Shown piece by piece: positions 1,248 to 59,900 of a stretch of DNA of 64,000 bases. Positions within the stretch are counted from its first letter, which is position 1. Each line of letters opens with the position of its first letter. The notes beneath the pieces are model-generated. The model was not told where the DNA came from, searched no databases, and saw only the letters and a list, made by a program, of their open reading frames with translations. The stretch comes from Tubiluchus corallicola (lineage: Eukaryota > Priapulida > Priapulimorpha > Priapulimorphida > Tubiluchidae). The stretch spans positions 1 to 64,000 of the forward strand of contig JAQGDQ010000334.1 in assembly GCA_030141605.1 (NCBI GenBank), in the 5' to 3' direction. A program made the translations under genes and the position numbers.

Positions 1248-1397
1248 AAATGTCTCTCTTAATTTTTAAACCAATTTGTCCGAATTAAGCTGAAGATTTA
1301 CAAGTGGAAATTTTCAGTTTGTTTGTGTAAATAAAGGTTTTTGGGTAGGATTTTTACGCAAAGAGTAATAAAAGGGGGAGCTTTGAGAAAGTTTCAA
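1248..1397 (+). repeat. Dispersed intergenic repeat, copy A
   Basis: Diverged copy of the repeat family described in the findings. The right end (TAATAAAAGGGGGAGCTTTG, 1366-1385) is clear and the left boundary is uncertain. It faces the 3' end of clpX, so it is not a leader for a neighbouring gene. Confidence 0.6.
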
Positions 1398-1412
1398 GCT
1401 GCTTGTGAAGTG

Positions 1413-2630
1413 TTAACTTGCCTTTAGCCTGGTAATGCTTACGCGATTCAACTTTTCAGCAGCCAGTTTTTTTCCTATCTCTATCTGCTTCTCTTTGCCG
1501 GAGGGCATTTCAAACATAATATCGCTTATTATTGTTTCACATATTGATCTTAATCCCCTTGCTCCAAGTTTAAATTCAACCGCCTTATCAACAATAAAGT
1601 CAAGCGCCTTATCACTAAAAGACAGCTCTATGCCATCCATTTCAAATAGTTTGATATACTGTTTGATAATTGAGTTTTTTGGTTCTATCAGTATCCTACG
1701 CAGGGCGCTTTTATCAAGCTGCGTAAGGTATGTCAGGACAGGTAGTCTTCCTATGATTTCGGGTATCAACCCATAGGAACGCAGGTCTTGAGGAGATACA
1801 TACTGCAGCATATTATCCTTGTCTATTAAGTCACTATCACGGCTCGCGTTATATCCCACAATTTTGGTGTTTAGTCTCTGCCCTATTTTTCTTTCAATAC
1901 CTTCAAATGCTCCACCACAAATAAAAAGTATATTTCGGGTATCAATAGGTATCATCTTTTGTTCCGGATGTTTCCTTCCTCCCTGTGGCGGGACATTTAC
2001 CACCGCTCCCTCCAGGAGCTTAAGAAGGCCTTGCTGCACACCCTCTCCCGAAACATCACGCGTAATAGAAGGGTTATCGCCTTTGCGCGCTATCTTGTCG
2101 AGCTCATCAATAAAAACTATTCCGCGCTCGGCAGCCTTAGTGTCGTAATTGGCAGCCTGCAGAAGGCGTGTTAGCAGGCTTTCTATATCTTCTCCAACAT
2201 AGCCGGCCTCCGTAAGTACTGTTGCATCTATGATTGTAAACGGGACATGTAGCATTCTCGCAATAACTTTGGCCAGCAAAGTTTTGCCTGTACCGGTAGG
2301 CCCCACAAGTATAATATTTGACTTTTCTATCTCTGTTTCATCATCATCGACTCTCTGGCCAAGGCGCTTATAGTGGTTATACACTGCGACTGCCAGTACC
2401 CTCTTTGCATTGTCCTGGCCTATTACATACTGATCGAGAAATTCCTTGATCTCAATAGGCTTTTTTATGTTTTCTCCACTCAGGTCGAAGTGGCTCTCTT
2501 TTTTTCCCAGCTCCTCTTCTATAATTGTGTATGCCTGTTCAGCACAGCTATCACAGATATGCCCTTCTATACCCGCAATAAGAAGGCCTACCTCCTTTTT
2601 CCCTTTTCCGCAAAATGAGCATTTATCCAT
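1413..2630 (-). CDS. clpX: ATP-dependent Clp protease ATP-binding subunit ClpX
   Basis: ClpX is the hexameric AAA+ unfoldase that feeds substrates to ClpP in the cytoplasm. The 405-residue length is normal. The N-terminal zinc-binding domain has Cys4, Cys7, Cys26 and Cys29. Walker A is GPTGTGKT (residues 110-117), Walker B is IVFIDELDKI (171-180), and the pore loop GYVG lies at 143-146. A C-terminal AAA small domain follows (LGARGLRSICE). It is the last gene of the minus-strand tig-clpP-clpX block, with only 34 bp between the clpP stop and the clpX start, so the two are probably co-transcribed. No terminator is obvious downstream. Confidence 0.97.
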   Translation of the reverse strand: MDKCSFCGKGKKEVGLLIAGIEGHICDSCAEQAYTIIEEELGKKESHFDLSGENIKKPIEIKEFLDQYVIGQDNAKRVLAVAVYNHYKRLGQRVDDDETEIEKSNIILVGPTGTGKTLLAKVIARMLHVPFTIIDATVLTEAGYVGEDIESLLTRLLQAANYDTKAAERGIVFIDELDKIARKGDNPSITRDVSGEGVQQGLLKLLEGAVVNVPPQGGRKHPEQKMIPIDTRNILFICGGAFEGIERKIGQRLNTKIVGYNASRDSDLIDKDNMLQYVSPQDLRSYGLIPEIIGRLPVLTYLTQLDKSALRRILIEPKNSIIKQYIKLFEMDGIELSFSDKALDFIVDKAVEFKLGARGLRSICETIISDIMFEMPSGKEKQIEIGKKLAAEKLNRVSITRLKAS

Positions 2631-2664
2631 AATTCAGAAATATTTTTTACTGCACAAAAGCGCC

Positions 2665-3363
2665 CTATTTTTTTTGTATTTTCTCTTTACCTTTTACCAG
2701 TACATCATCTATCATTCCGTAATCAAGGGCTTCCTGTGAGGTCATCCAGTAATTGCGATCAGAGTCTTGCTCTATCTTTTTAAAAGATTGTCCGGTGTGG
2801 AGAGCAATTATTTCATACAGCTCTTTTCGGATCTTTATTATCTCGCGCACCTCTATCTCCATATCTGCGGCTTGTCCCTGAACACCACCAAGGGGCTGAT
2901 GTATCATTATGCGCGAATGCTTAAGGGCCGAGCGTTTTCCTTTCGTACCTGCCGTTAGCAATACAGCTGCCATTGATGCAGCTACTCCGGTACATATTGT
3001 TGCAATATTGCAACCAACATACTGTAAGGTATCATAAATGCCCAGTCCGGCAGAGACAGCTCCGCCCGGAGAGTTGATGTAGACTTGAATGTCCTTACCC
3101 GGGTCAGACGTGTCCAAGTACAGAAGCTGCGCCTGGATAATATTGGCAATCTCATCATAAATAGGAACTCCCAAAAAAATGATGCGATCCATCATAAGGC
3201 GCGAAAATACATCCATTGGCACCACATTCAATTGCCGCTCTTCCAGGATATTTGGGGTGATCCCTTTTAAAGTTGAGCTATAGCGGTCCAGGGTAAGGCT
3301 GCTTATCCCCATATGCCCGGTTGCATACTTTTTAAAATCGTTGCTGTTATAATCCATTTTCAT
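2665..3363 (-). CDS. clpP: ATP-dependent Clp protease proteolytic subunit ClpP
   Basis: ClpP is the serine peptidase that forms the double heptameric proteolytic chamber. The catalytic serine is Ser130 in GVAASMAAVLL and the histidine is His155 in RIMIHQPLGG. The spacing of 25 matches the family. The catalytic Asp lies in the QDSDRNYWMTS stretch near residue 202. The protein has 232 residues, somewhat long at the N-terminus (about 30 residues before the conserved core), so a propeptide or a later start at Met3 or Met18 is possible. Dispersed repeat copy B ends 26 bp before the start codon and its terminal palindrome could contribute to the promoter. Confidence 0.97.
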   Translation of the reverse strand: MKMDYNSNDFKKYATGHMGISSLTLDRYSSTLKGITPNILEERQLNVVPMDVFSRLMMDRIIFLGVPIYDEIANIIQAQLLYLDTSDPGKDIQVYINSPGGAVSAGLGIYDTLQYVGCNIATICTGVAASMAAVLLTAGTKGKRSALKHSRIMIHQPLGGVQGQAADMEIEVREIIKIRKELYEIIALHTGQSFKKIEQDSDRNYWMTSQEALDYGMIDDVLVKGKEKIQKK

Positions 3364-3388
3364 AAGTTGTTTTGATGTAAAAATACAG

Positions 3389-3524
3389 TGAGACCTTTGT
3401 AAAGTTCATTTTTTATTAGCTGCTTTTATCAAAATTCTGTTCAAAACCCTCATTTATGTTGATAAGGAGTGGTTTATCAACGAATTTTCCTCAATCTAAA
3501 CTAAAATATTTTGTCTAGCAAAAG
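3389..3524 (-). repeat. Dispersed intergenic repeat, copy B
   Basis: Minus-strand copy. The right end reads CTTTACAAAGGTCTCA and lies 26 bp upstream of clpP. TATTTTTA follows 14 bases after the TTTA, a possible but weak -7 box. The central block (ACATAAATGAGGGTTTTGAA) is well conserved. Confidence 0.8.
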
Positions 3525-3612
3525 TATAATTAAGACAATCCCGTTCTAAATTAATAATATCCTGAACAACAAAAAGAGTTGTCATATTCAAGAGCTATAA
3601 AGCATCCCAAGA

Positions 3613-4971
3613 CTATCTTTCAAAGAGCTTTTTAAACTCCTCTTGGGTGATTACTTTATCCTCTAGCGTCACTTTTTCTCTCACCAAGTCAAGCACTTTC
3701 TCTTCCACCTTTCTTGCTATAAGCTCATTTTTCTCCTTGCTATCTGCAATAAGTTTTTTTGCATATTCGCCAAGATGCTCATCGGGCACATTATTTATCC
3801 CGTACTGGCTAAAGCGCATTCGTGCTATGTTTACAGCAGCCTCATTTACATCATCTTCGCTTATCTTAATATCGTTCTCTTTAGCAATACGATTCTTAAT
3901 AATACTCCACTTTGTTGCTTCACAAAACTCGGGGAACCCCTCTTCTATCCTCTCTTCCGGCGTATTCTCATTAATGCTTTTCAGCCATCGTTTTAAAAAT
4001 GCTTCAGGCAGCTCCACCCCTGCCTTTTTGGTCAGTGCTTTTTTTGCATCTGTCCCAAACAGGTGTAAGCAGGAGTTTTCAAACTGCTTATTCAGCTGTT
4101 CTCCGATACTTTTGCGAAACTCATCTTCGCTTTTAATATCTGTTTTTTCTCCAAATATGCCTTTAAACAGGCTCTCATTTATCTCTGAGGGGACCAGTTT
4201 TGTTATCTTTTTTATTGTAAAGCTGAAGTCTGTTTCCAGCTTTTCTGCCATATCTGCATCGATGTTCAGCATATGGGACACCTCCTTGTGGTTGTTATCA
4301 TATGCGACGAGGGGGTTAAAGCAGAGTGTATCTCCCACTTTTTTGCCTGCAAAGCTTTTTTTAATGTCTTCATCTTTAATGTATTTGACATAAATAGCGG
4401 CATCTTTTGTCTCTATTCCGCCTTTCTGTACCTTCTTTCCATTGTCCAGTTGGATAAAGTCTCCATAAACAATCTCCTCTTCGCTTACTTCATCTGCTGG
4501 TACACTTTTTGAGAATTCATTGGTATATGCATCTATCCGCTCATCTATAAGGGTCTTATCAATTTTTACTATATAGTGAGGCAGCTTAATGTCTTTGCTA
4601 AGCTCTATTTTAAATTCGGAAGCGACAGCTATGTCAAAAGCAAACTCAAAGCTTTCATCGCTGTCCCAGTTAATTAAATTTTTATTGTCCTGGTTGTGAA
4701 GAGGTTCGCCAAGAGGGTTTATGCCCTCCTTTGTAATGTAGTCGTAAAGGCTGCTGTTAACCAGCTTACCCACTTCATCTGATAGTATGGCTTTACCGTA
4801 CATTTTTTTTATAACACTGGTGGGCGCCATTCCTGCACGAAATCCCGGTATATTTGCCTTTTTCCTGTGTTCCTTTATAGTTTTTTCAACCTTTTTTTCA
4901 TAATCGGCTTTTTCAACTACAAGCCTTATGACAGAGTTCAGGTTATCTATGCTCTCTCTTGTAATCTTCAT
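3613..4971 (-). CDS. tig: Trigger factor (ribosome-associated chaperone, PPIase)
   Basis: Trigger factor binds nascent chains at the ribosome exit tunnel and catalyses prolyl isomerisation. The 452 residues fit the family. The N-terminal ribosome-binding domain contains the tunnel-docking loop NIPGFRAGMAP (about residues 40-50), followed by a diverged FKBP-like domain (around GDFIQLDNGKK, near residue 170) and a long helical C-terminal chaperone domain. It is the first gene of a tig-clpP-clpX block, a common bacterial arrangement. The 249-bp gap to clpP contains repeat copy B, so clpP may also have its own promoter. Repeat copy C lies upstream of tig. Confidence 0.95.
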   Translation of the reverse strand: MKITRESIDNLNSVIRLVVEKADYEKKVEKTIKEHRKKANIPGFRAGMAPTSVIKKMYGKAILSDEVGKLVNSSLYDYITKEGINPLGEPLHNQDNKNLINWDSDESFEFAFDIAVASEFKIELSKDIKLPHYIVKIDKTLIDERIDAYTNEFSKSVPADEVSEEEIVYGDFIQLDNGKKVQKGGIETKDAAIYVKYIKDEDIKKSFAGKKVGDTLCFNPLVAYDNNHKEVSHMLNIDADMAEKLETDFSFTIKKITKLVPSEINESLFKGIFGEKTDIKSEDEFRKSIGEQLNKQFENSCLHLFGTDAKKALTKKAGVELPEAFLKRWLKSINENTPEERIEEGFPEFCEATKWSIIKNRIAKENDIKISEDDVNEAAVNIARMRFSQYGINNVPDEHLGEYAKKLIADSKEKNELIARKVEEKVLDLVREKVTLEDKVITQEEFKKLFER

Positions 4972-5030
4972 GAGTGTGTCAATAACAGTAAAAAAAATAT
5001 AGAGTAACTGTCAGGGCGCGAGAATCTGAA

Positions 5031-5157
5031 GCGAGTTTTTTGCAAAGTTCATCTTTTTATTAATACTTCCCTCAAGATCCTCGTTTATATACAAGCTGCA
5101 GTTTCTCATTGATTCTTTCCTCAATCTAAGCAAACAGTGTTTCTGTCTTGCAAGAGA
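5031..5157 (-). repeat. Dispersed intergenic repeat, copy C
   Basis: Minus-strand copy, about 60 bp upstream of tig. The right part reads ATTAATAAAAAGATGAACTT followed by TGCAAAAAACTC. The left part is diverged. TATATTTT (minus strand, near 5001-4994) between the repeat and tig could be a -7 box. Confidence 0.75.
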
Positions 5158-5203
5158 TCGAAGTTTATTCAGCCCCTCTTTGCCTAATTGTCTAAGGCCG
5201 GCC

Positions 5204-5221
5204 CTCTACTCTTTAGTAGAG
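5204..5221. other. Perfect hairpin downstream of tRNA-Leu
   Basis: CTCTACT and AGTAGAG form a 7-bp perfect stem with loop CTTT. It lies about 27 bp beyond the 3' end of the minus-strand tRNA-Leu and could act in 3' processing or termination. It has no T run, so it is not a canonical intrinsic terminator. Confidence 0.45.
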
Positions 5222-5247
5222 CAGGGGCAACCTCAGAGCATTCTGCG

Positions 5248-5329
5248 TGCGGACGAAGGGACTCGAACCCCCACGCCTTTCGGCACCAGATCCTAAGTCT
5301 GGCGCGGCTACCAATTACGCCACGTCCGC
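5248..5329 (-). tRNA. tRNA-Leu (anticodon TAG)
   Basis: On the minus strand the acceptor GCGGACG pairs with CGTCCGC. The anticodon stem CAGA/TCTG encloses a loop CTTAGGA with anticodon TAG. A long variable arm (GTGCCGAAAGGCGT) marks a class II leucine tRNA. The T arm is GGGGGTTCGAGTCCC. A73 is the discriminator and CCA is not encoded. The 82-base length is normal for tRNA-Leu. Confidence 0.96.
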
Positions 5330-5341
5330 CTTTATAAGGTG

Positions 5342-8347: not shown

Positions 8348-8420
8348 GTTTAAAGATAGTGTATGAGAGCTCAAAAGTAGGAATAATGGCTTTGCAGCCA
8401 AATTATTACTACAAGCCTAT

Positions 8421-8541
8421 TGTAAAGTGAGATATTTTGTCTTGGTCTGAAAGGGAGTTGCAACTTCATCAGTGTAAGCTATTTTGAAAAGGGTTTTCAC
8501 TAAAGTGTTAAGTAGTGGAGACGAGTTTTGCAAAAATCTCA
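8421..8541 (+). repeat. Dispersed intergenic repeat, copy D
   Basis: A diverged copy between the transporter and tRNA-His. The right half (TTTTGAAAAGGGTTTTCACT, then GAGTTTTGCAAAAATCTCA) is recognisable. The left end reads TGTAAAGTGAGATATTTTG. Confidence 0.65.
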
Positions 8542-10153: not shown

Positions 10154-10282
10154 TGAGGCTTTGCAAAGCGAAGGAGATTTGACTCAGTCTGAAAAAAATC
10201 CGGTGATAAGCCACAGTTTTAATGATATAAATTAGGATTTTGACGAAAGTGTTAATAAGAAGATAAGTTGTGCAAAGTCTTG
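10154..10282 (+). repeat. Dispersed intergenic repeat, copy E
   Basis: Nearly full-length copy upstream of the V-ATPase operon. The left end TGAGGCTTTGCAAAGCGAAG is well conserved and the right end is AAGTTGTGCAAAGTCTTG. A TATATTTG just before the repeat (10132-10139) is a candidate -7 box. The region 9976-10153 holds nothing else I can identify. Confidence 0.8.
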
Positions 10283-18865: not shown

Positions 18866-18996
18866 TCTTTTGATAGAGAAAAAGAAACACTCTTAGGAAC
18901 AGACGGGAAAGTCAGGAAGAGAACCTGCCGCTTGCCGGCGCAAATGGAGGCTTTGAAAAAATATACTGATAAAAAAGTAGCTTTGCAGAAGTCTTA
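18866..18996 (+). repeat. Dispersed intergenic repeat, copy F
   Basis: The left half is strongly diverged and the right end is clear (GATAAAAAAGTAGCTTTGCA, 18968-18987). It is directly followed by copy G in the same orientation. The stretch 18721-18865 holds no gene I can recognise. Confidence 0.65.
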
Positions 18997-19010
18997 ATCC
19001 GGTATCTTTG
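18982..19010 (+). promoter_or_regulatory. Promoter at the junction of repeats F and G
   Basis: TTTG at 18982-18985, inside the right end of repeat F, is 17 bases upstream of TATCTTTG at 19003-19010, a perfect -7 box that merges with the left end of repeat G. Transcription would run through repeat G into nadA. Confidence 0.55.
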
Positions 19011-19140
19011 CAAGGCAGAAGAGTTTGGTTCAGGATGAGGAATGACCAGGAAAGAGCCGTAACTTACTGATGTAAATGGGAATTTTGAAGGGGCTTTGAC
19101 GAAAATTATTGATAAAAAGATGAGCTTTGCAGAGATCTCA
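19006..19140 (+). repeat. Dispersed intergenic repeat, copy G
   Basis: One of the best-preserved copies. It has CTTTGCAAGGCAGAAG at the left, CTTACTGATGTAAATGGG in the middle and AAAAAGATGAGCTTTGCAGA at the right, 24 bp before the nadA start. TTTG at 19126-19129 and TAATTTAA at 19146-19153 are 16 bases apart and form a weak promoter candidate. Confidence 0.85.
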
Positions 19141-22853: not shown

Positions 22854-22981
22854 TGAGAGCTTTACAAAGTGCAATATTTTGGGCTAGATTGAAGAAAAAA
22901 CCGATGAAAAACCGCAGCCTGCTAACGTAAATGAAGATTTTCTCTAAAACAGTAATAAAAACATAGCCATGCGAAGGTTAA
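22854..22981 (+). repeat. Dispersed intergenic repeat, copy H
   Basis: The left end TGAGAGCTTTACAAAGTG and the middle (CCTGCTAACGTAAATGAAGA) are clear. The right end is degraded (CATAGCCATGCGAAGG). It is one of two copies between ilvE and the susC-like gene. Confidence 0.7.
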
Positions 22982-23184: not shown

Positions 23185-23311
23185 GAGGCACTTTGGTTCA
23201 GGTTGAGGAAAAATTCGATGAGGAACCGCAAATTACTGATGTAAGCGAGAGCTTGCTAAGAGGTTTTTCTCGAAAGCAATAATAAAAGCATAATCTTTAC
23301 AAAGTCTTCAA
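23185..23311 (+). repeat. Dispersed intergenic repeat, copy I
   Basis: The left end is partly missing (GAGGCACTTTGGTTCAGG); the middle (AAATTACTGATGTAAGCGAG) and right end (AATCTTTACAAAGTCTTCA) are present. It lies 160 bp before the susC-like start. The interval 22982-23184 shows no gene or element I can identify. Confidence 0.75.
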
Positions 23312-29335: not shown

Positions 29336-29398
29336 GACAGAGGCTTTGTACTATAGGCTTTTGACGAAAATAGCAATAAAAGTGTGATCAAGGCTCTC
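29336..29398 (+). repeat. Dispersed intergenic repeat, copy J (internally deleted)
   Basis: A left-end fragment (AGGCTTTGTA) is joined almost directly to the right third (GGCTTTTGACGAAAATAGCA, then AATAAAAGTGTGATCAAGG). The central 65 or so bases are missing. It faces the 3' end of the next gene. Confidence 0.6.
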
Positions 29399-30086: not shown

Positions 30087-30220
30087 AGAGATCTTTATGG
30101 TGCGAAAGAGTTTGGAATATGTTGAAAAATAATTTGGTGATAAGCTTCAGCTTACCGATATGAACAAGGACCTTGAAGAAGATATTAATTAAAAAGATGG
30201 GCTTTGTTAGAGGTTTCAAC
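30087..30220 (+). repeat. Dispersed intergenic repeat, copy K
   Basis: The left end reads AGAGATCTTTATGGTGCGAA and AGAGTTTGG follows. The middle is GCTTACCGATATGAACAAGG. The right end reads AAAAAGATGGGCTTTGTTAG. It is 145 bp from copy L in the same orientation. Confidence 0.8.
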
Positions 30221-30364: not shown

Positions 30365-30502
30365 AAGGCCTTTGCAAAGCGAAAGAGTTTGGTGTTGAGT
30401 AAAAATTTGGTGATAGCCAGTAGGTTGTTAGTGCAAGTGAGGATGTTGAAGAGGATTTTTACGAAAACAATAATAGTGAGGTGAGTTTTGCAAGGTACTC
30501 AA
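30365..30502 (+). repeat. Dispersed intergenic repeat, copy L
   Basis: The left end AAGGCCTTTGCAAAGCGAAA is near consensus. The right end GAGGTGAGTTTTGCAAGG lies 13 bp before the DUF4251 start. TATTTATT sits 16 bases after the TTTG but touches the start codon, so it is unlikely to be that gene's -7 box. The interval 30221-30364 shows nothing recognisable. Confidence 0.85.
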
Positions 30503-31078: not shown

Positions 31079-31221
31079 GGAGTTTTTTGCAACGCGAAAG
31101 AGTTTGGTTCATGCTGGGAAGTAATCTGGTGAAGAGCCGTAGTTTGCTGATGTAAATGATTTTTTGAAGAGAATTTTTCACGAAAATATTAATAAAAAGA
31201 TGAGCTTTTGCAAAGCTCTCA
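31079..31221 (+). repeat. Dispersed intergenic repeat, copy M
   Basis: Well-preserved copy: TTGCAACGCGAAAGAGTTTG at the left, GTAGTTTGCTGATGTAAATG in the middle, and AATAAAAAGATGAGCTTTTG followed by CAAAGCTCTC at the right. It ends 13 bp before the queC start. Confidence 0.9.
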
Positions 31222-33447: not shown

Positions 33448-33586
33448 GAACTCTTTGCAGTGAGAGGATTGGTACAGGGTGAAAAGTAGCATGGTTAAGG
33501 GTCGCAGTTTACTAATGCAAAAACTAGGATTTTGAAAAGGGTTTTCACCAAAATGCAAAGAAATGAGTTTTGCAAGCGCTTCGAGT
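33448..33586 (+). repeat. Dispersed intergenic repeat, copy N
   Basis: Between queE and queF. The left end reads CTCTTTGCAGTGAGAGG and the right end reads AATGAGTTTTGCAAGCGCTT, 12 bp before queF. The middle GCAGTTTACTAATGCAAAAA is recognisable. Confidence 0.8.
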
Positions 33587-40441: not shown

Positions 40442-40560
40442 TTGAGGCTTCTGTAAAACGAAATATTTTGGGTTAAGCGGAGGAAAAGCTTGATAATACC
40501 CCCATAGTTTACTGATATAAATGAGGGTTTTGGCAGAAGTTATTTTAATAAAAGGATCAC
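40442..40560 (+). repeat. Dispersed intergenic repeat, copy O (truncated at an IS end)
   Basis: The left end TTGAGGCTTCTGTAAAACG and middle TAGTTTACTGATATAAATGA are clear. The sequence breaks off at the IS4 boundary after TTTTAATAAAAGG, without the terminal CTTTGCAAAG. The interval 40223-40441 has no gene. Confidence 0.75.
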
Positions 40561-41851
40561 TACTGTCCACTTAAAACATACTGATTGACAGTTGATTATT
40601 ATCTCGTTCTTTGACATTATTGTAATCTAGTTTTATAAACAGCTCATTTATAGGTGATTTATCAAATAAGGAGATGCCTAAAATCTGTAGAATTTCGTAA
40701 GTTGAACTCTTAAGGTTTAGGTCATGCCCCACAATGGCAACCAAACAGTATGTTATGATTGCAGAGTAAATTTGTATTCTAACTGCATTTTCGGAATTGC
40801 CCCAAAAGTTTTTAACTTTTAAATGTTGCTTTATCCATTTGAAGAACAGCTCTACTTGCCATCTGTTTTTGTATAAGTAAGCGATATCTTCTGCGGAAAG
40901 CTCAAAATTGTTGGTCAAGAAAATGAATTCTCTTGAGGTTTCTTCATCATAGAACTTTATCCTCCTGATTTTTTCGGGGTAATCCTTAGATTGATAGAAG
41001 CCAGTTAGTTTGCCTATTTGGTCGCACTTTACACCTGTGCTCTTGTCAACGGGATTTGAATACATCCGTTTAAATTTAAGGTTGGACTTGGCTCTGACGA
41101 CGAAATATGCAGAGAGGTTTGTTATTCTGAAAAGCCGTTTAAAATCGACATACCCCCGGTCAAACACATAATAAGCGTTTGCTTCGTAAGGTATCACGTC
41201 CATTGCATTGACATCGTGTACGGAAGCTTCTGTGATATGCACAAACACTGGTATTTGTATTGTAACATCAAACAAGGTATGAAGCTTTATTCCTCCTTTT
41301 TTCTTGCGAAACTTTGCCCACCAGAATATATTCAGGCACAAGTCTATCGTTGATGAATCAAATGCATATACCTTGCCTTTGATCTTAAAGGTGTCGTTTG
41401 ATAGTTTTTTGCGCGCTACATCAATCATGTAGTATGCAAATTCCTCAAAAATCTTGCTGTTCCTTTTTTCATTGGCTTTAGCAAGATTGCTGCGGGATAC
41501 GCTCTTGCCAAAACCAAGATGGTAAGTTTTGTTGCTGTGTGCATTTACCGCAACAGTCAGGTCTCGTAAACTATCCCTGTTTGTTAACTGACCAAATATC
41601 ATACAGAGCAACTGGTTCCAACATGTAAAATGCTTGATGTACCTGTTGCCGGAATATTTAGAAACGAATTTATCAAATACCCGTCGGGGCAGAAACATGC
41701 TCAATTGGGCAAAAACATATTTACCTTTATTCATCACAGAAAATAATTTCCGCAAACATAAAGGATTCAAATCGTCACCGTTTAAATATCGCTGTAAAAT
41801 TCAGATATACTATAATTTAAAAGAACGTTTTTTACTTTTTAATGGACACTA
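40561..41851 (-). mobile_element. IS4-family insertion sequence
   Basis: The element is about 1.29 kb with one transposase gene. Candidate terminal inverted repeats are TACTGTCCACTTAAAA (40561-40576) and, reading inward from the other end, TAGTGTCCATTAAAAA (41851-41836), 13 of 16 matching. No direct target duplication is obvious. It lies between two fragments of the dispersed repeat (copies O and P), which do not join into one copy. Confidence 0.8.
40571..41734 (-). CDS. IS4-family transposase (DUF4372 N-terminal domain)
   Basis: The DDE transposase moves the surrounding element. I prefer the ATG at 41734 (MNKGKYVFAQL) over one 12 codons upstream. The N-terminal DUF4372-type domain (FDKFVSKYSGNRYIKHFTCW) precedes the IS4 core: first Asp in YAFDSSTIDL, second in YVFDRGYVDF, and the YREK-type signature in YLYKNRWQVELFFKWIKQHL with Arg, Glu and Lys in place. 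The frame is intact at 387 residues, so the element may still be active. It sits between rpmE2 and a Spy-like gene. Confidence 0.93.
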   Translation of the reverse strand: MNKGKYVFAQLSMFLPRRVFDKFVSKYSGNRYIKHFTCWNQLLCMIFGQLTNRDSLRDLTVAVNAHSNKTYHLGFGKSVSRSNLAKANEKRNSKIFEEFAYYMIDVARKKLSNDTFKIKGKVYAFDSSTIDLCLNIFWWAKFRKKKGGIKLHTLFDVTIQIPVFVHITEASVHDVNAMDVIPYEANAYYVFDRGYVDFKRLFRITNLSAYFVVRAKSNLKFKRMYSNPVDKSTGVKCDQIGKLTGFYQSKDYPEKIRRIKFYDEETSREFIFLTNNFELSAEDIAYLYKNRWQVELFFKWIKQHLKVKNFWGNSENAVRIQIYSAIITYCLVAIVGHDLNLKSSTYEILQILGISLFDKSPINELFIKLDYNNVKERDNNQLSISMF

Positions 41852-41911
41852 TGTTGTGATATTAAATAAGTTAAAATTATTTAAGGAGAATCTAATTACT
41901 AAAAAAAATCA

Positions 41912-41989
41912 GTCTGCTTGCATAAGTAGGAGGCTTGAGGAGGGTTCTAACAAAAATGTTAATAACGTGGTGAGTTTTGCAAAAACCTA
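41912..41989 (+). repeat. Dispersed intergenic repeat, copy P (right half)
   Basis: Only the right half is recognisable: GGCTTGAGGAGGGTTCTAAC, then AACGTGGTGAGTTTTGCAAA. It faces the 3' end of the Spy-like gene on the other strand. Confidence 0.65.
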
Positions 41990-42799: not shown

Positions 42800-42930
42800 T
42801 GAGTCTATTACAGCACGAAATGCTTTGGCTAAGGATGAAAAGTATTCTAACGAAAAACCGTAGTTTACTAATGTTAAGTGAAGATTTTAACGAAAATATT
42901 AATAAAAAGATGAGCTTTGCAAGAATCTCA
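42800..42930 (+). repeat. Dispersed intergenic repeat, copy Q
   Basis: Left: TGAGTCTATTACAGCACGAA. Middle: GTAGTTTACTAATGTTAAGT. Right: AATAAAAAGATGAGCTTTGC, then AAGAATCTCA. It ends 42 bp before the penicillin-binding protein gene and contributes the -33 box of its promoter. Confidence 0.9.
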
Positions 42931-45336: not shown

Positions 45337-45413
45337 AAAAATATCAACCCTGCCGGACTCCGTGTCTACAGAGTACCCGTAAAGGAGTAATCCCTTCTCA
45401 AGTCGAAACACCT
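45337..45413 (+). repeat. 77-bp direct repeat, left copy (IS1634-type target duplication)
   Basis: This stretch, from AAAAATATCAACCCTGCC to AGTCGAAACACCT, recurs without any difference at 47060-47136. It abuts the left inverted repeat of the IS exactly. It is best read as the long target-site duplication made by the element. Confidence 0.9.
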
Positions 45414-45517
45414 CCTGTTTTGTGCACCACAACGACGCCCCAAGAATGCACTACTGATTATCAGCAAGATAGGAATTTCAAATTTGCATTTTGGGTGCTG
45501 CATGCTTAATTTTATGC

Positions 45518-46519
45518 ATGTTTGTCCGAAAAAATAAGAATCGGAGTGGTTCTGTGAGTGTACAGATAATCTCAAAAAATCATGGTAAATATAAGGTTGT
45601 AAAAACCGTAGGTTGCGCAAAAACAAAGCGGGAAGAAGAATTGCTTTTATTGCTTACCAACACAGAGATAGAGCGGCTTAGGGGCATGCAATCGCTTTTT
45701 GTTGAACACGATGATTTGGTGGTTGAAAACTTTGTGGACAGCATTGCAAACAATCATTTACAAGTTGTAGGAAGTGAATTAATTTTAGGCAAAATTTATC
45801 AAGTCTTTAACTTTCCGGATGATGGGTGCTGCAATTATTTTCGCAACCTGGTATTATGTCGGTTAGTGTACCCGGGAAGCAAATTAAAAACCGTTGACTA
45901 TTTTAGACAGCACCTGAATACAGATGTTAGCGTACACACTATTTATCGTTTCCTTGACGAGCTAAATACAAGTTTAAAGCCACAAATTGAACAACTTACC
46001 TTTAAGCACACCAGGAAGCTACTAAAAGGAAAGATAAGTGTCGCATTTTATGATATGACCACATTGTATTTTGAGGTATCAGAAGAAGATGACTACCGTA
46101 TTCCCGGATTCAACAAAGATGGCAAGCATCAACAACCGCAAATAATGATAGGTTTACTGGTGGGTAAATATGGATACCCGATTGGCTATCAAATATTCGA
46201 GGGAAACACCTCTGAAACAAAAACACTAATCCCTGTTCTGGAAGCCTTTCAAAATAAATTTAATATCGAAAGGCCTATTGTAGTTGCCGATGCAGCTTTA
46301 CTCTCGCAGAAGAACATAAATGCCTTGATTGAAAACAAATACGAGTACATACTTGGAGGACGGATAAAGAATGAAAGTCAAAAAATAAAAGAAAAAATTA
46401 TAGCTCTTGATATTAAAGAAAACAAGCCAGTTGAGTTGAAAAACAAGAATGGAAGGTTGATTATCAGCTTCTCAGAAAAAAGAGCCTTCAACGATAAAAA
46501 AACAGAGAGAAGGGCTTAA
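45518..46519 (+). pseudogene. IS1634-family transposase, N-terminal part before frameshift
   Basis: The frame opens at the ATG at 45518 (MFVRKNKNRSG) and has the IS1634 pattern: an N-terminal domain with SVQIISKNHGKYKVVKTVGC, then the DDE core with first Asp in VAFYDMTTLYFE and second Asp in IVVADAALLSQKN. It runs into a stop at 46517-46519, shortly after a run of seven A (46496-46502). The remaining third continues in the -1 frame. One missing A in the run would explain the break; ribosomal slippage there could also bypass it. Confidence 0.85.
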
Positions 46520-47031
46520 AAAGACTTGAAAAACGTGTTGCTTCCGGCAAGCTAACAAAGAATCACATAAATAATCGCGGGTATAATAAATATCTGAATC
46601 TGTCGGGGGAGATTGCCGTTAAAATCGACTACGATAAGTTCCAGTCAGATAGAGTTTGGGATGGGTTGAAGGGTTATGTAACCAATACCCATTTACCGAG
46701 AAAAGATGTTATCGGGAATTATAGTCAGTTGTGGCAAGTGGAAAAAGCTTTTCGTATATCAAAAACTGATTTACGAATACGGCCAGTTTATCACCGCTTA
46801 AAAGAACGCATTGAAGCCCATATCTGTATTTGTTTCACAGCCTATGCCATTTACAAAGAGCTGGAAAGGTTATTGAAGGCAAATAATATTGATATCTCTG
46901 CTGAAAAAGCCTTGGAACAAATCCGGCAGATCAGGCAGCTGCAATACACTCTGCCCAAATCGAAACAAGTCAGAACAAAAATATTACAGCCAACTGAAAT
47001 GCAAAAAAAGTTGTTAAATATGAAATTATAA
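46501..47031 (+). pseudogene. IS1634-family transposase, C-terminal part after frameshift
   Basis: This is the continuation of the transposase in the -1 frame. It carries the catalytic Glu region (SQLWQVEKAFRISKTDLRIR) and the C-terminal tail FTAYAIYKELERLLKANN, and ends 28 bp before the right terminus. No start of its own covers the region needed before the catalytic Glu. With the first part it would make a protein of about 500 residues, the usual size. Confidence 0.85.
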
Positions 47032-47059
47032 ACTTGGGTGCTGCAATGCACAAAACAGG

Positions 47060-47136
47060 AAAAATATCAACCCTGCCGGACTCCGTGTCTACAGAGTACC
47101 CGTAAAGGAGTAATCCCTTCTCAAGTCGAAACACCT
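47060..47136 (+). repeat. 77-bp direct repeat, right copy
   Basis: Exact second copy of 45337-45413, directly after the right inverted repeat of the IS1634-type element. Confidence 0.9.
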
Positions 47137-47594
47137 TGGCTCATGCTGAAAAGAGCCGATGAAAGTTTTCATCCAGATAACGATTGTGGACAGGTGTCCC
47201 CCCTCATGACAATATATTTAAAGGTATTTGCTTTGGCTCTATGATAGTTTGCTGAAAAGCTTTGTTTTGCACTACTGATAGTTGTGTATACCCGGCGTAA
47301 TGCTTATTTAGTGAGCTGGTCACTGAGCTTTTCATATAAATATGCAATTCAGCATAGTCGGAAATATTTAACATACAAAGTAGCACCACCAGCTAAGGCA
47401 ACACTCTTCTCTCAAAACGAATATTTTTTGCTGTTTCGTCTATCTCTTCAGTCGTATGCTAGCCCAGAACTTTAGCTTTAAAGTGTCTGCTTCGACTACT
47501 TCTTTCCGGGTTCAACATCCTCACGCTGGGCTGATTCTGCCATGGTATGGTTATCGTGTCCTCATTTTTTACACACCACACCAATATTGTCTCT
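47137..47594. other. 458-bp stretch with no recognisable gene
   Basis: Between the IS duplication and the next minus-strand gene I find no reading frame with coding character, no hairpin terminator and no clear repeat copy. The first 30 bases (TTGGCTCATGCTGAAAAGAG) faintly resemble the left half of the dispersed repeat, too weakly to call. Confidence 0.5.
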
Positions 47595-50649: not shown

Positions 50650-50684
50650 GTAGTAAAAAGATGAGTTTTGCAAAGGTTTTAAAG
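50650..50684 (+). repeat. Dispersed intergenic repeat, copy R (right end only)
   Basis: GTAGTAAAAAGATGAGTTTT, then GCAAAGGTTTTAAAG. It begins directly behind the stop codon of the cytochrome fusion gene and lies 51 bp before the next start. Confidence 0.65.
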
Positions 50685-54459: not shown

Positions 54460-54470
54460 CATAAGTGAAA

Positions 54471-56417
54471 ATGAAGGAGCCATATAGTATAAGAAGAGTG
54501 TTTTGGAGTGTTTTATTTGTTGTCCTGGCACTCATTCTATTTCTTGCCCCAAAGGCTGCTGTTAATATTGATGAGATAATTCATTATAGGTATGCACATC
54601 AGGTAATCGACTGGTTTGCATCAAAAGGAGAGGATGATAGATGCCTCCACACACCTGTAACCAACCTAAAGTATTACGGGCAGTCTGTTGATAATTTTAC
54701 CGCCCTCATCAACAGAACTTTTAGTATTGAGAATGAGTATCTCACCAGACACTACACCGGCGCCTTTCTTGCATGGCTTTTATTAGTGGTTACCGGATTA
54801 CTTGCGGTAAAAATAACAGGGAGCTATACTGTAGGATTGGTTGCTGTACTACTCTACGCAATATCGCCAAGGCCTATGGGACAGGCATTTGGAAATCTAA
54901 AAGATATACCTTTCTCTCTCGGTTACACTGCCGGTATATTGGCGCTAGTGAGGATATTCAAGCGTATGCCTGCTCCACGATGGAAGGATATACTGCTTTT
55001 TGCCCTGGCTATTGCTTTTACCAATTCTGTCAGGATCGGAGGGCTTGTCCTGTATTTTTATGCGGTACTGTTTCTAGTATGGTGGCTGCTTCTGCATCGC
55101 AATGAGGCAGCAGGGGTATTTGCATCTCCAGAATTTTGGAAAATAGGTGTCGTTGTGCTTGTCATCGGATACTTTGGAGGGCTTCTTTTCTGGCCATATG
55201 GACTGAACAGCCCATTAGTACACCCTTTGGAATCACTCCGGGTGATGGAGCATTATAAAGTGAGCATACGCCAGATATTTATGGGTGAAGTGTTTTGGAG
55301 CACAGACCTACCGTGGTACTATCTTCCCGTGTGGCTGTTTATCTCTATTCCCGAGGTAGTCTGGCTCGGCGTTGCCGGATACATAGCAATGCTATTTTGG
55401 AACAACAAAGGGCAAGTGCTTCCGATGGGAATCCTGCAATTCTCACTATTATTCCCTGTTTTATACGTGATTATAAAAGATGCAAATTTGTATAGCGGAT
55501 GGAGACAGATGTATTTTATTTACTCCCCTCTGGTTATTATCTCCTCTGTCGGAATTGTTAATGGTTACAGAAAGCTGAAAGGTAATATGGCCAGGGTGTG
55601 CGCTTTTATTGTTGTCCTCTCTTTATCTATTTTTCCTTTGCTCCATTCTATTAAGTCCTTTCCTGCCGATTATATATATTTCAATAAATTTGCAGGAGGA
55701 TCAAAAGAAGCGTGGAGCAATTATGAGTACGATTATTACTGGCACGGCATGAAAGAGGCTTTTGAATGGGTTGAAAAAAATGAGCCTTTATCCGATGGCA
55801 CAATAATAGCCTCTAACTTCAATGTAGGAGTGTATTCTCAAAAGAGTAATAAGTTGAGATACAAATATGTTCATTACTATGAAAGGAATTCCACTTCCTG
55901 GGATTTTGCTATACTTGGGATCAATTATGTGCATCCCGCTCAGATGAAAAATGGCAAATGGAAGCCCGAAAATTGCATTAAAGTATTTTATCACAAAAAT
56001 AATCCTGTTATCATTGTATTGAAAAACCAGGATTCTCGCGCAATAGAGGGGAGTAAGAAGTATGCGAATAGAGAGATAGCAGAGGCGGCCAAGCTGCTTG
56101 AAGAGGCCACTGAAGTGGACTCACTTGACGTGCGTTTATTGTCAATGCTGGGTGGGTGCTACCTGAACAAGAATGAGTGGATGTTACTGGATAGTTTGCT
56201 TAAAAAAGGGTTTGAGATACACCCCTATTATGAGCCGTTTTTTGTTCTTAAAGCGCGAATGGAGTACGAAAAGGGTGATTATAAGTCTTCTAAAGAGACG
56301 TGTTTGCAAGCACTCAGTATAAATCCGCGGTATCGTGAGGCTATAACACTCCTGACTGACTGTTATAAGAAGCTTGGAGAGCATAACCCATCCGGTAAAA
56401 AGTACAGGGTTAATTAA
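54471..56417 (+). CDS. Membrane glycosyltransferase (GT39/PMT-like) with C-terminal TPR
   Basis: This 648-residue protein has about ten membrane segments between residues 10 and 405, an early acidic motif NIDEIIHYRYAH as in GT-C enzymes (Asp-Glu after the first helix), and a periplasmic or cytoplasmic tail from 430 on. The end (about 530-640) looks like tetratricopeptide helices (AEAAKLLEEATEVDSLD, GDYKSSKETCLQALSINPRY). A role in moving sugars from polyprenyl phosphate onto a protein or glycan is likely. The ATG at 54471 is chosen; a GTG two codons upstream is possible. Confidence 0.82.
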   Translation: MKEPYSIRRVFWSVLFVVLALILFLAPKAAVNIDEIIHYRYAHQVIDWFASKGEDDRCLHTPVTNLKYYGQSVDNFTALINRTFSIENEYLTRHYTGAFLAWLLLVVTGLLAVKITGSYTVGLVAVLLYAISPRPMGQAFGNLKDIPFSLGYTAGILALVRIFKRMPAPRWKDILLFALAIAFTNSVRIGGLVLYFYAVLFLVWWLLLHRNEAAGVFASPEFWKIGVVVLVIGYFGGLLFWPYGLNSPLVHPLESLRVMEHYKVSIRQIFMGEVFWSTDLPWYYLPVWLFISIPEVVWLGVAGYIAMLFWNNKGQVLPMGILQFSLLFPVLYVIIKDANLYSGWRQMYFIYSPLVIISSVGIVNGYRKLKGNMARVCAFIVVLSLSIFPLLHSIKSFPADYIYFNKFAGGSKEAWSNYEYDYYWHGMKEAFEWVEKNEPLSDGTIIASNFNVGVYSQKSNKLRYKYVHYYERNSTSWDFAILGINYVHPAQMKNGKWKPENCIKVFYHKNNPVIIVLKNQDSRAIEGSKKYANREIAEAAKLLEEATEVDSLDVRLLSMLGGCYLNKNEWMLLDSLLKKGFEIHPYYEPFFVLKARMEYEKGDYKSSKETCLQALSINPRYREAITLLTDCYKKLGEHNPSGKKYRVN

Positions 56418-56468
56418 GGGGACATGGATTATTTTATTATTATGATATTATTATAAAAACTTAGAACT

Positions 56469-56729
56469 ATGAAGAGTTTTAAACTGTTTACTGTCATCAT
56501 TTGTCTATTTGTTGTTACAATCTGCCCTGCCGTGTCACAAAATGATAACGACGACGGCACTTATATCGAAATTTCCACAGAGCAAGACAGTTCGCATGTA
56601 AGTAATGTGCTCGATTTTAGCGGTGAATATGAGGACCCATCAGGAAGCAGCACCGTCTGGATTGGATTGGTTATTATTGTAGTTGCCGGGATTGCTTATT
56701 TTGTTGTCAAAAAGAAGAAAAAGAGCTAG
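56469..56729 (+). CDS. Small exported protein with C-terminal membrane anchor
   Basis: This 86-residue protein has a signal peptide (FKLFTVIICLFVVTICPAVSQ), a short acidic, Ser/Asp-rich central part of about 40 residues, then PSGSST, a hydrophobic helix (VWIGLVIIVVAGIAYFVV) and a KKKKKS tail. The end resembles a sorting signal or a simple type I anchor with positive-inside tail. I do not recognise a family. It follows the GT39-like gene by 51 bp and may belong to the same transcript. Confidence 0.7.
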   Translation: MKSFKLFTVIICLFVVTICPAVSQNDNDDGTYIEISTEQDSSHVSNVLDFSGEYEDPSGSSTVWIGLVIIVVAGIAYFVVKKKKKS

Positions 56730-56806
56730 CTGTATAGTTAAGCTTTAAGTTTGATGCGGCTGCCTGCTATATTAACTTTCTTCGCAAGGAAGTATTTGAC
56801 TGTAAG

Positions 56807-56946
56807 TAAGGCATTTGCAAGTCAAAGCTTTAAATTAGGTTGAGAAAGGTTTGATAAGAGACCACAATTACTAATGCAGATGAGGGTTTTGAAGAGTGTT
56901 TTGACAGAAATATTAATAATAAAATGAGCTTTGCAAAAAGGTCTCA
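56807..56946 (+). repeat. Dispersed intergenic repeat, copy S
   Basis: Left: TAAGGCATTTGCAAGTCAAA. Middle: CAATTACTAATGCAGATGAG. Right: ATAAAATGAGCTTTGCAAAA, then AGGTCTCA. TTTG (56930-56933) is 18 bases before TATGGTTG (56952-56959), a one-mismatch -7 box. Confidence 0.85.
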
Positions 56947-57031
56947 GTTTTTATGGTTGGTGACGCAGCAGCTATGTTCTAAATAAAAAGCTGATATCTA
57001 GTTTTAGAAGTGTTGGTAGAAGGATAGTCGT

Positions 57032-57982
57032 ATGAAGCGTATACTTATTACAGGTGGTGCTGGCTTTATAGGTTCTCACCTTTCAGAGCGGTTGCTGAAA
57101 GAAGGCAATGAGATAATTTGCCTTGATAACATGTCTACCGGAAATGTGAGAAATGTTATCCATTTGCGTGGAGACTCCAGGTTTGCGCTGATTGAGCATG
57201 ATGTAATAGACCCTTATTATGTGGAGCATGATATTGATGAAATTTATAATCTGGCGTGCCCGGCCTCCCCAATACAGTACCAGATTGATCCCATTAAAAC
57301 ACTTAAGACATCTGTTGTAGGGGCAATAAATATGCTTGGCATGGCCAAGTTGAAGGGCTCAACTATACTACAGGCGTCAACTAGCGAGGTTTATGGCGAC
57401 CCTAGAGTCCATCCACAGCCCGAAACATACTGGGGGAATGTGAATCCTCTTGGACCACGCTCATGCTACGATGAAGGGAAGCGATGTGCCGAGACACTTT
57501 TTCTTGATTACCGAATACATCACAATACCCGCACAAAGATTGTTCGTATTTTTAATACATATGGGCCCCACATGAATATATATGATGGGAGAGTTGTATC
57601 CAATTTCATTGTCCAGGCATTAAAAGGCGAGGATATTACAGTTTTTGGCGATGGGTCACAGACCCGCTCATTTCAGTATGTCGATGACCTTATCGAAGGG
57701 CTTGTGCAAATGATGTCTACAAGTAGTATTTTTTTTGGGCCGGTAAATATCGGAAACCCTGTAGAGCTCACGATGCTTGATTTGGCTGAGGCTATTTTAA
57801 AGCTAACAGGTTCAAAGTCAAAGATTGTTCACCTTCCGCTACCTAAGGATGACCCTATTCAGCGACGGCCGGATATATCACTGGCAACCAAAGAGCTGAA
57901 CGGATGGAGACCAAAGGTTCAACTGGAAGAGGGACTTAAAAACACAATTGAGTGGTTTGAAGGTTTGCTGAGAGAGGCCTAA
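57032..57982 (+). CDS. UDP-glucuronate decarboxylase (UDP-xylose synthase), SDR family
   Basis: Converts UDP-glucuronate to UDP-xylose for surface polysaccharide. It is a 316-residue extended short-chain dehydrogenase: NAD-binding [17 protein letters not shown] at the N-terminus, [30 protein letters not shown] (typical of this branch), and the catalytic Tyr-x3-Lys in [12 protein letters not shown]. The motif [21 protein letters not shown] and the C-terminal [17 protein letters not shown] also fit. Repeat S lies upstream, T downstream. Confidence 0.94.
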
Positions 57983-58025
57983 TAAGTCTACTCTAATTCT
58001 GGTTTAAAGAGTAAACCGTATGTCT

Positions 58026-58151
58026 TGAGACCTTTGTAAGGGAAAGGTTTTAGCCCGGATTTAAAAAAAGATTTAGTGAAAAGCCTCTGCCTGCATACAA
58101 TGATAGTTTTGACAAAGGTATTAATTAAAAGAGGAGTTTTGCAAAGATATT
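58026..58151 (+). repeat. Dispersed intergenic repeat, copy T
   Basis: The left end TTGAGACCTTTGTAAGGGAA keeps the GAGACC terminus. The right end reads AAAGAGGAGTTTTGCAAAGA. It ends 118 bp before the cardiolipin synthase start. Confidence 0.85.
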
Positions 58152-58268
58152 AGGCGGCAAAGCAACTTATTAATAATTAGTTATAGCGACATCAGTAAAG
58201 ATAATCTTGCGTCTTTACCTGTTTTGCGAGTCTATTGTTTTATTTTTGCGAGCTTACAGAGTTTTTTG

Positions 58269-59720
58269 ATGATAAATTTAGAGTCCTCATTCTGGCTAGT
58301 GTTTTTAATAGTGTATTATGTTTTTGTTACTGCAACATTCTTGTGCGTACTGTTGGAGAATAGAGACCCCCTGAAAACCCAAGCCTATTTATTGCTTATT
58401 TTACTGCTTCCTATTGTAGGGATGACTATATATTTCTTTTTTGGTGTCAACTATCGAAAGAAAAGAATATTTTCACGCAAGGTTATGTCCGATAAAAAAC
58501 AGTTGGAATCATTGATGGGGAAGCATGTAGAGAGTGAGAAAAAAAACATAATGCATTTGCATGAGATAATGAGCAGCAAATGGAAGCTTCCTTTTTTAAA
58601 CAGGGAAAATGCTTATTCCCATATTACTCTCAATAATGCAGTAACTCTTTTGAGAAATGGGGAGGAAAAGTTTTCAGAGGTTTTTTATGAGCTGAGCAAA
58701 GCAAAGTCACATATTCATATTGAGTACTATATTTTTGAGGATGGGGAAGTGCTTGATGAGATTATAAGGATTATCAGTGAAAAGTCTCGTAATGGAGTAG
58801 AAGTGAGAATTATCTATGACGGTATTGGGACAAGCACCCCCGCGAAGAAAAAGCTTAATGCAGTAAAAAATATTGAAGTTAAAGAGTACAATCCTGTTCT
58901 TTTTTCAAGACTGGCTAACAGAATAAGCCGCAGAGATCATCGTAAGATCATAGTAATTGATGGTAAAGTAGGGTTTACCGGCGGGGTAAATATTGCAGAT
59001 AAGTATAACAATAATGGTCATAATAATCCCTACTGGCGTGATACACATTGTAAAATAGAGGGAGAAGCGTGCAGGCCGTTACAGGCCCTCTTTGTTTTGA
59101 ATTGGCTTTTTCTTTCAAATGAGATGCTTCCCGCTAGTAAAAAGTATTTTCCGGATCACGATTCTAAAGGCGATATAGCATGTATGATACTGGGAAGCGA
59201 GGCTGACTCAGACAGCACAAATATTATGGAGGTGTATTTTCAGTTAATTACCTCTGCACAGAATGAGGTGCTTATTGCTACCCCCTACTTTATACCCAAC
59301 GAAAGTATACTTACAGCTCTTAAGGTAACAGCAAAGTCAGGCGTAAAAATTACTTTACTACTTCCAAAATACTCCGATTCATATTTTGTCCACGCGGTAG
59401 CACTAACTTATTTAAGCGAGATGCTTGAGAATAATGTTGAGGTGTATTTATATGAGAAGGGCATGATGCACTCCAAAATTGTAATTGTAGATGAGGAGGT
59501 GGTATCTGTTGGCACAGCAAATATGGATTATCGCAGTTTTGATCACAATGCCGAGGTCAACGCTATTATATTTAATAAAAATGTGGGGAAAGAGTTGAAA
59601 TCGGAGTTTTTAAATGATTTGAAGGTATCTGAAAAACTTAGCTTTTCAGATTATGACAACCGCCCTTTGCATGTAAAGCTTACCGGAGCAGTTGTCAGGT
59701 TGCTGGCCCCTGTGCTGTAA
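58269..59720 (+). CDS. cls: Cardiolipin synthase
   Basis: Phospholipase-D-type enzyme that makes cardiolipin from phosphatidylglycerol at the inner membrane. The start at 58269 (MINLESSFWLV) places two membrane helices at residues 6-26 and 37-56; a longer in-frame start at 58224 is less likely. Two HKD catalytic motifs are visible: RDHRKIIVIDGKVGFTGG and MMHSKIVIVDEEVVSVGTAN. The GVNIADKYNNN and YFQLITSAQNEVLIATPYF stretches fit the family. The length is 483 residues. Confidence 0.95.
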   Translation: MINLESSFWLVFLIVYYVFVTATFLCVLLENRDPLKTQAYLLLILLLPIVGMTIYFFFGVNYRKKRIFSRKVMSDKKQLESLMGKHVESEKKNIMHLHEIMSSKWKLPFLNRENAYSHITLNNAVTLLRNGEEKFSEVFYELSKAKSHIHIEYYIFEDGEVLDEIIRIISEKSRNGVEVRIIYDGIGTSTPAKKKLNAVKNIEVKEYNPVLFSRLANRISRRDHRKIIVIDGKVGFTGGVNIADKYNNNGHNNPYWRDTHCKIEGEACRPLQALFVLNWLFLSNEMLPASKKYFPDHDSKGDIACMILGSEADSDSTNIMEVYFQLITSAQNEVLIATPYFIPNESILTALKVTAKSGVKITLLLPKYSDSYFVHAVALTYLSEMLENNVEVYLYEKGMMHSKIVIVDEEVVSVGTANMDYRSFDHNAEVNAIIFNKNVGKELKSEFLNDLKVSEKLSFSDYDNRPLHVKLTGAVVRLLAPVL

Positions 59721-59759
59721 GGTTTTTTTAAACATACAGCGAAAATTTTGCTAAACACG

Positions 59760-59900
59760 CTTTGAACCCACTGTAAGAATCATCTTTTAATTGATATTTT
59801 TGTCAAAATACTCTTCAAAGCATCATTTACGTCAGCAAACCAATGATTTCTATCAAATTATTTTCCGGCCTGAGCCAAGCTATTTCGCCTTGTAAAAAGA
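59760..59900 (-). repeat. Dispersed intergenic repeat, copy U
   Basis: Minus-strand copy between cls and bamD. On that strand the left part reads TTTTTACAAGGCGAAATAGC, the middle GTTTGCTGACGTAAATGATG, and the right end AAAAGATGATTCTTACAG. Its right end faces the 3' end of cls. Confidence 0.8.

Follow-up and report, generated by a model that had tools for sequence, protein, structure and literature searches.

What kind of element is a repeat of ~130 bp that carries no transposase gene and recurs about once per 4 kb in DNA filed under an animal? The question is raised by contig JAQGDQ010000334.1 (C723) of the Tubiluchus corallicola assembly GCA_030141605.1 (343.5 Mb, 2344 contigs), of which positions 1 to 64,000 were analysed as one stretch (hereafter, the window) and in which a first-pass annotation made from the letters alone had described a dispersed family of 21 repeat copies. 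Our results suggest, with a probability of about 80%, that these repeats are a high-copy family of non-autonomous miniature inverted-repeat transposable elements (MITEs) of the IS5 type, now decayed, which belongs to a Bacteroidales bacterium and whose interior shares homology with the folded core of mobile elements in other genomes. The genes of the window are bacterial and Bacteroidales-like (e.g., a TonB receptor plug domain, DUF4251 and a QueC closest to Prolixibacter at 75%), and the DNA is therefore most likely that of a bacterium associated with the eukaryote, either as a symbiont or because it was sequenced together with it. Within this bacterial genome (G000), 264 kb were examined, namely the 64-kb window and 200 kb of contig C1700.

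The repeat family itself is confirmed. A profile trained on 17 of the 21 listed copies (copies J, O, P and R of Table 1 were excluded) recovered all 21 at 14.1-110.2 bits, while the top score among 20 shuffled versions of the window (first-order Markov, 1.28 Mb) was 9.1 bits, and the search added one fragment that had been missed (47116-47171). When each training copy was left out in turn, 17 of 17 were still recovered at 25.1-100.0 bits against shuffle maxima of 7.7-10.7, and the same window-only profile found 36 further copies of at least 14 bits in C1700, a contig outside that training. The profile search against shuffled DNA suggested by the first-pass annotation thus came out far on the side of a dispersed family. 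With a profile retrained on both stretches and a threshold of 12 bits (shuffle maximum 11.5), the window contains 22 copies and C1700 contains 43, i.e., 65 copies in 264 kb, which make up 4.5% and 2.6% of the DNA, respectively, including at most ~18 bases of modelled flank per side. In the whole assembly, the 12-mer GAGACCTTTGCA occurs 71 times and its reversed form 25 times; a chromosome of ordinary size would hold several hundred copies. Elsewhere, plasmid and phage records displayed no DNA similarity to the window consensus, and the window profile reached at most 6.4 bits on 44 queC loci of other species. A 27-base match to the consensus in Prolixibacter (E 0.007), the sole match among three named relatives, was set aside with a profile score of 9.5 bits.

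The copies had all been described as intergenic, and this holds for 61 of 64 copies, which lie between open reading frames (ORFs) of at least 100 aa; the 65th copy (A) is omitted from this count, as one of its sides has no such ORF. The three cases located 'inside' an ORF, to which the description does not extend, are a mini-copy near an ORF start and two copies at one 107-aa ORF.

The ends of the repeats are those of a transposable element. In the consensus of 50 copies, the element reads GAGACCTTTGCAAAG...TTTTGCAAAGGTCTC with ~100 bp between the ends, and its termini, right end TTTTGCAAAGGTCTC, agree at 14 of 15 positions. The 15-bp terminal inverted repeats (TIRs) of the first description are therefore inverted as claimed but not exact in the consensus; moreover, of 40 copies with both ends within the model, 32 have recognisable ends and none of these carries two perfect ones. 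In these 32 copies, a worn 5-bp target-site duplication (TSD) was detected directly outside GAG..CTC (match fraction 0.494 vs. 0.353 shuffled, 1/2000), and the flank match increases to 0.66 in the 13 best-ended copies. Lengths of 2 to 12 were tested for duplication, with 3 as the runner-up at 54/2000, and when 175 combinations of offset and length were tested, the ten best results all had the 5-bp register. Three mini-copies in C1700 (44, 54 and 56 bp) have kept both ends and lost the inside. Target duplications of constant length, combined with TIRs, characterise movement by a DDE transposase, and the MITE-like nature proposed in the first-pass annotation is thus supported by the matching termini, the worn duplication, the short end-only copies and, as described below, mobile relatives in other genomes. 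It should be noticed that two mini-copies (C1700, 77064-77150 and 80561-80640), 3.5 kb apart, are alike across and past their right ends, as if the locus had been duplicated.

No named family had been recognised for these repeats, an opinion that the termini overturn. Indeed, the window consensus ends GAGACCTTTGCAAA match published IS5-family termini (ISNme1 and BrickBuilt), and GAGACC-type termini are found among the TIR strings of PMC4596501, whose Table 2 gives GAGACCTTTGCAAAA for ISNme1, GAGACCTTTGCA for BrickBuilt_4 and GAGACCATTGCA, a near-match, for ISPg1. In the excerpted text of this source, ISNme1 and ISPg1 are filed under IS5 and the P. gingivalis MITE BrickBuilt is likened to both; the window family is therefore an IS5-type MITE by its termini. 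BrickBuilt and MITEPgRS/464, IS5-type MITEs of Porphyromonas gingivalis, are likewise intergenic and belong to Bacteroidales, the BrickBuilt_4 TIR (GAGACCTTTGCA/TGCAAAGGTCTC) is identical to that of the window family over 12 nt, and both have A-rich duplications (AAAAA at BrickBuilt_5, AAAAG at window copy M) (PMC4596501). In contrast, BrickBuilt contains 23-nt tandem repeats between its leader and tail and has 19 copies in ATCC 33277 (PMC4596501, excerpt), whereas the window family is ~130 bp long, lacks these tandem repeats and recurs about once per 4 kb; the sequence comparison with BrickBuilt covers the ends. ISNme1 and its MITE ATR come from another phylum (Neisseria meningitidis), and the TIR GAGACCTTTGCAAAA equals 14 of 15 positions of the left and 15 of 15 of the right consensus end in a comparison of ends only (PMC4596501, excerpt).

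The interior points to a wider relationship. At E<=1e-4, the consensus gave DNA matches in 1 of 140 genomes from the Prolixibacter family and in 3 of 71 from the family to which a Marinilabiliaceae genome (G003) belongs, and the five matches were all confined to 28-45 bases in the middle of the element. This core, CGSAGTTTACTNNNGTAAATGAGNATTTT, has the shape of a 12-bp stem, an internal loop with GA facing GA, a 6-bp stem and a 4-nt loop. With at most one mismatch, it was found in 28 of 247 genomes of the order of G003, with a maximum of 54 per genome (reversed pattern, 0), while the relaxed core was found in none of 247 genomes of a phylum-wide sample, and its spread is therefore patchy; the exact 22-nt core occurred neither in 395 genomes of the phylum nor in viral contigs. 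Around the core, the sequence varies between relatives and the shape is kept. Indeed, when 34 elements from 30 genomes were folded singly, the six-pair core stem formed in 33, the adjoining 3x2 internal loop in 32 and at least 6 outer arm pairs in 31, with bulges that appear conserved by eye (CAAGGC on the left and an AACGCAG-like stretch on the right). In 34 core-centred 52-mers (two loci excluded, no G000 sequence), stem pairs were formed in 95.8% of the cells, and the stem covariation was 0.421, compared to 0.109 +- 0.013 after shuffling and at most 0.113 in slid versions. Because the innermost stem was itself the motif used to fetch the loci, its invariance is in part a consequence of how they were chosen. 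In one genome (G692), however, eight long elements were fetched by TIR alone, and four of these display GTGTAC/GTACAT instead of GTTTAC/GTAAAT, a compensatory change, and the covariance model matches 13 of the 16 TIR-fetched loci of this genome. Another genome (G687) contains two or more core types (with GAGGA and GAGCA as partners) and hence several coexisting element families.

The covariance model built from these 34 sequences (R2), which includes no G000 sequence, gave 12 matches (E<=10) in the 264 kb, all 12 located on repeats and on the correct strand, in a genome where repeats represent only ~3% of the DNA. Four of them exceed 28 bits, well above every control match (ten loci, 198 kb, with four matches at 14.6-21.0 bits that all come from a single Elusimicrobia locus). 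In addition, the machine-made consensus of 50 copies folds into a long hairpin around the core (z -6.49, 0/200 shuffles as stable), as does the hand-adjusted consensus (z -7.34). Both the R2 matches and the consensus fold place the window family, by core sequence and by shape, in a group defined here as the hairpin-core superfamily. Searches of the open-access literature brought up no description of this core, and a covarying core common to elements with different ends thus appears undescribed there. The window family taken by itself is a new member of the IS5-type MITEs.

The relatives of the family are mobile. In G692, three 141-bp copies are 100% identical and a fourth is 97.2% identical, while the flanks of the three are unrelated. 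All ten G692 elements with intact ends are bordered by perfect 6-bp direct repeats TAnnTA (shuffled mean 1.84, 0/2000), the inner TA being part of the search pattern and the test covering fetched loci only. Ends of the TTCTAAAAA type were recognisable in 18 elements, and 13 of these have a 4-bp duplication at a fixed offset (expected 2.06, 0/300), at a setting among the best of the 144 offset/length settings tried. The end types and their duplications are accordingly GAGACC with 5 bp (the window family), GGGGG-TTCTAAAAA with 4 bp, GTGNNNGCAAGAAAA with TAnnTA and, for one Pseudomonas element, GGTCTGTACG with CTAG; one core therefore travels with at least three end/target types. For the GTGNNNGCAAGAAAA ends, 173 sites were counted in G692 (reversed control, 1), and no inverted pair 1-3 kb apart, the arrangement that an autonomous element would show, was found among the ~100 sites listed. 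An IS4 element with DUF4372 was rejected as mobiliser of the GTGTC class, being present in only 2 of 10 carrier genomes. Note that one of the ten G692 elements (L189) consists of nothing but the two ends, joined head to head into a perfect palindrome of 40 bp and flanked on either side by TAAATA; it represents a minimal mobile remnant.

The core also occurs outside Bacteroidales. It lies within a TIR element in a Halomonas record (R2 45.1 bits), an element not found in E. coli genomes, and in two Pseudomonas plasmid elements (R2 49.1 and 24.9 bits), with no match in a third (L170). The weaker of these matches, on a Pseudomonas amygdali plasmid (L168), has CTAG on both sides. MITEPsy1 of P. syringae, as described in the excerpted text of PMC3189936, is a 100-nt element that is regarded there as derived from an IS5 element, transposes and duplicates 4 nt (CTAG or YTAA). 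It has the CTAG duplication in common with L168 and may stand close to the core-carrying elements, but the L168 TIR is unlike the published one, so that the two cannot be equated (PMC3189936). In Staphylococcus aureus NZ_CP077935.1 (L167:2991-3042), the core recurs in a hairpin (65.8 bits) that is located in the 16S-23S rRNA spacer and ends ~50 nt before the 23S rRNA, a likeness that may reflect common ancestry, domestication or convergence. This record is labelled as a plasmid yet carries chromosomal genes, and it contains two further matches.

Several observations weigh against reading the window repeats as decayed IS5-type MITEs with a shared core. Eight of the 12 R2 matches, at 14.5-21.1 bits, are about as strong as those in the controls, and it is by their position that they count. 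A consensus made from only the 17 window copies does contain the core hairpin, in a less stable form (z -2.29, 5/200); all six window copies folded individually have mostly lost the fold (z -2.75 to 0.01), and RNAalifold predicted no pair on 15 aligned window copies, so that a common RNA structure derived from the window copies alone was rejected. As for the duplication, it survives at 4 or 5 positions in only 9 of the 32 copies (three are perfect and six more match at 4 of 5), an earlier, cruder test was weak, and a length of 5 bp is not diagnostic of IS5, since the ISPg and BrickBuilt TSDs published in PMC4596501 (excerpt) vary in length. The first-pass annotation had proposed a search for a full-length transposon with the same termini, but no TIR-bounded element of 0.6-3.5 kb was found in the 264 kb (sites on repeat copies excluded), and therefore no autonomous partner is demonstrated; in viral contigs, the TIR 16-mer gave 11 single sites, none with a good inverted partner. 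Moreover, the placement of C1700 in the same bacterium as the window is deduced from the common repeat family and a similar GC content. We read the weak folds of the individual window copies as neutral decay after activity had ended.

On this evidence, an IS5-family element with the same ends would have supplied in trans a DDE transposase that binds the TIRs, and the repeats would have moved by cut-and-paste into AT-rich sites, with selection presumably removing the insertions within genes. Once the transposase source fell silent, the copies, fold included, would have decayed. The least certain step is that, while active, the element may have needed its hairpin core in a folded, single-stranded form to which some protein was bound; this dependence is inferred because the core is kept while the TIR and the target-site length change between lineages. 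Our best guess, held with low confidence, is that the core is a protein-bound folded strand required either for movement or for tolerance by the host. More broadly, and quite tentatively, the core could be what selection holds constant across a very wide superfamily of miniature elements that has repeatedly swapped its ends, and hence its transposase. As folded single-stranded DNA or RNA, the core would be bound by a conserved cellular factor, whose normal target is hinted at by the S. aureus hairpin just upstream of the 23S rRNA.

That hairpin, together with the covarying stems of the relatives and the many window copies that aim at a close downstream start codon, would also fit a structured RNA or cis-acting leader that acts in transcripts (e.g., as a 5' untranslated element), which we consider unlikely. 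The plus-strand bias of the window copies is local: relative to codirectional neighbour genes, same and opposite orientations number 23:12 over the 264 kb (p=0.09) and 14:13 in relatives. Neither strand is thus clearly preferred, which makes it less likely that the element acts as a sense RNA where it has inserted. The orientation towards start codons was likewise rejected as a promoter or leader sign, since it stands out in the window but does not reach significance over the 264 kb and is absent in relatives. In addition, no gene is common to more than two of the relatives' element loci compared, the fold is mostly lost in the window copies, and no Rfam family falls on the repeats: at the gathering score, the window gave two tRNAs and no repeat match, and 20 loci searched at E<=1 gave two tRNAs, one DUF805b RNA and three below-gathering matches, with nothing above gathering on a repeat.

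A less probable explanation is that of a REP-like element moved on single strands by a Y1 (HUH) transposase. The repeats are palindromic, intergenic and abundant, as are those of REP/RAYT systems (PMC3733652, PMC6006769, excerpts), their inner hairpin is preceded by GGAG or GCAG, Y1_Tnp is present in 18 of 18 core-carrying vs. 11 of 16 other genomes searched, and Bacteroidetes enzymes of subclass 2.6 are reported with nearby 'atypical secondary structures' (PMC6006769, excerpt). However, an R2 match was found beside none of the 20 Y1 genes examined (out of 106 matches; 12 of the 20 in core-carrying genomes), and the window family differs from REP/RAYT in its greater length and in its TIRs and fixed-length duplications, which point to a DDE transposase.

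Slightly less credit still goes to the idea that the host keeps the copies as terminators, boundary or nucleoid elements, with mobility a matter of the past only. Their share of the DNA (2.6-4.5%) and their nearly always intergenic location would suit such a role, but the copies are diverged, truncated or interrupted (copy O by an IS4), and the fold is largely lost in all six examined. As a general description, ERIC, Correia/NEMIS and BOX of other phyla are likewise intergenic palindromic repeats of ~100-150 bp. Finally, a chance similarity of short AT-rich words, to which an ungapped copy-to-copy identity of often just 60-75% might point, is refuted by the held-out scores, the shuffles and the independent contig and has practically no probability left.

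The copies of the window are listed in Table 1. Copy O was interrupted by an IS4-family (DUF4372) element with TAGTGTCC-like ends (~40560-41853); copies O and P were rejected as one copy split by this insertion and P was counted separately, because the two overlap in the model. Next to the left-half fragment, a disrupted transposase region (45414-47059), which we take to be IS1634-like, has the ends CCTGTTTTGTGCA/TGCACAAAACAGG and is framed by two identical 77-bp direct repeats (45337-45413 and 47060-47136) that look like an unusually long target duplication. Elsewhere in the same genome (G000:C1 29609-53194), repeat matches lie in a mirror-image arrangement, as would result from an inverted duplication or from an error of assembly.

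Table 1. Repeat copies in the window, with window-profile scores, R2 matches and 5-bp flanks (left/right)
Copy	Position	Strand	Profile (bits)	R2 match	Flanks	Remarks
A	1267..1395	+	56.5			
B	3390..3524	-	85.7			
C	5033..5156	-	71.6			
D	8414..8540	+	51.8			
E	10158..10281	+	81.2			
F	18906..18995	+	42.6			recognised only from 18906 (model position 39)
G	19005..19139	+	98.7	19053-19086, 14.5 bits	AATCC/AAACC	
H	22857..22978	+	75.9			
I	23185..23309	+	86.8			
J	29341..29388	+	16.4			fragment; outside training set
K	30089..30213	+	72.6			
L	30367..30500	+	91.8		ACAAC/AAAAC	
M	31081..31220	+	110.2	31123-31172, 20.9 bits	AAAAG/AAAAG	top score in window; perfect 5-bp direct repeat
N	33450..33582	+	72.6			
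O	40445..40556	+	43.3	40486-40540, 16.0 bits		right end lost to IS4-family insertion; outside training set
P	41902..41988	+	36.6			left-truncated; outside training set
Q	42802..42929	+	86.3	42848-42895, 21.1 bits		
	47116..47171	+	15.0			left-half fragment, previously missed, beside IS1634-like element; retrained profile 18.2 bits
R	50651..50679	+	14.1			right-end fragment; outside training set
S	56810..56943	+	83.0		TAAGT/TCAGT	
T	58028..58149	+	62.4			
U	59764..59899	-	90.7			

A MITE is normally recognised by its ends, which it has borrowed from a single insertion sequence. Here, the core is constant while the end sequences differ, which suggests that the core, and not the ends, is the fixed part of the family. 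A covarying core common to at least three end/target types argues for selection inside the element, and the selected part becomes testable, whether as the binding site of a protein partner, in a replication or excision step, or in the tolerance of the element by its host. Altogether, the covariance model provides a search tool for a class of repeats without an Rfam match here.

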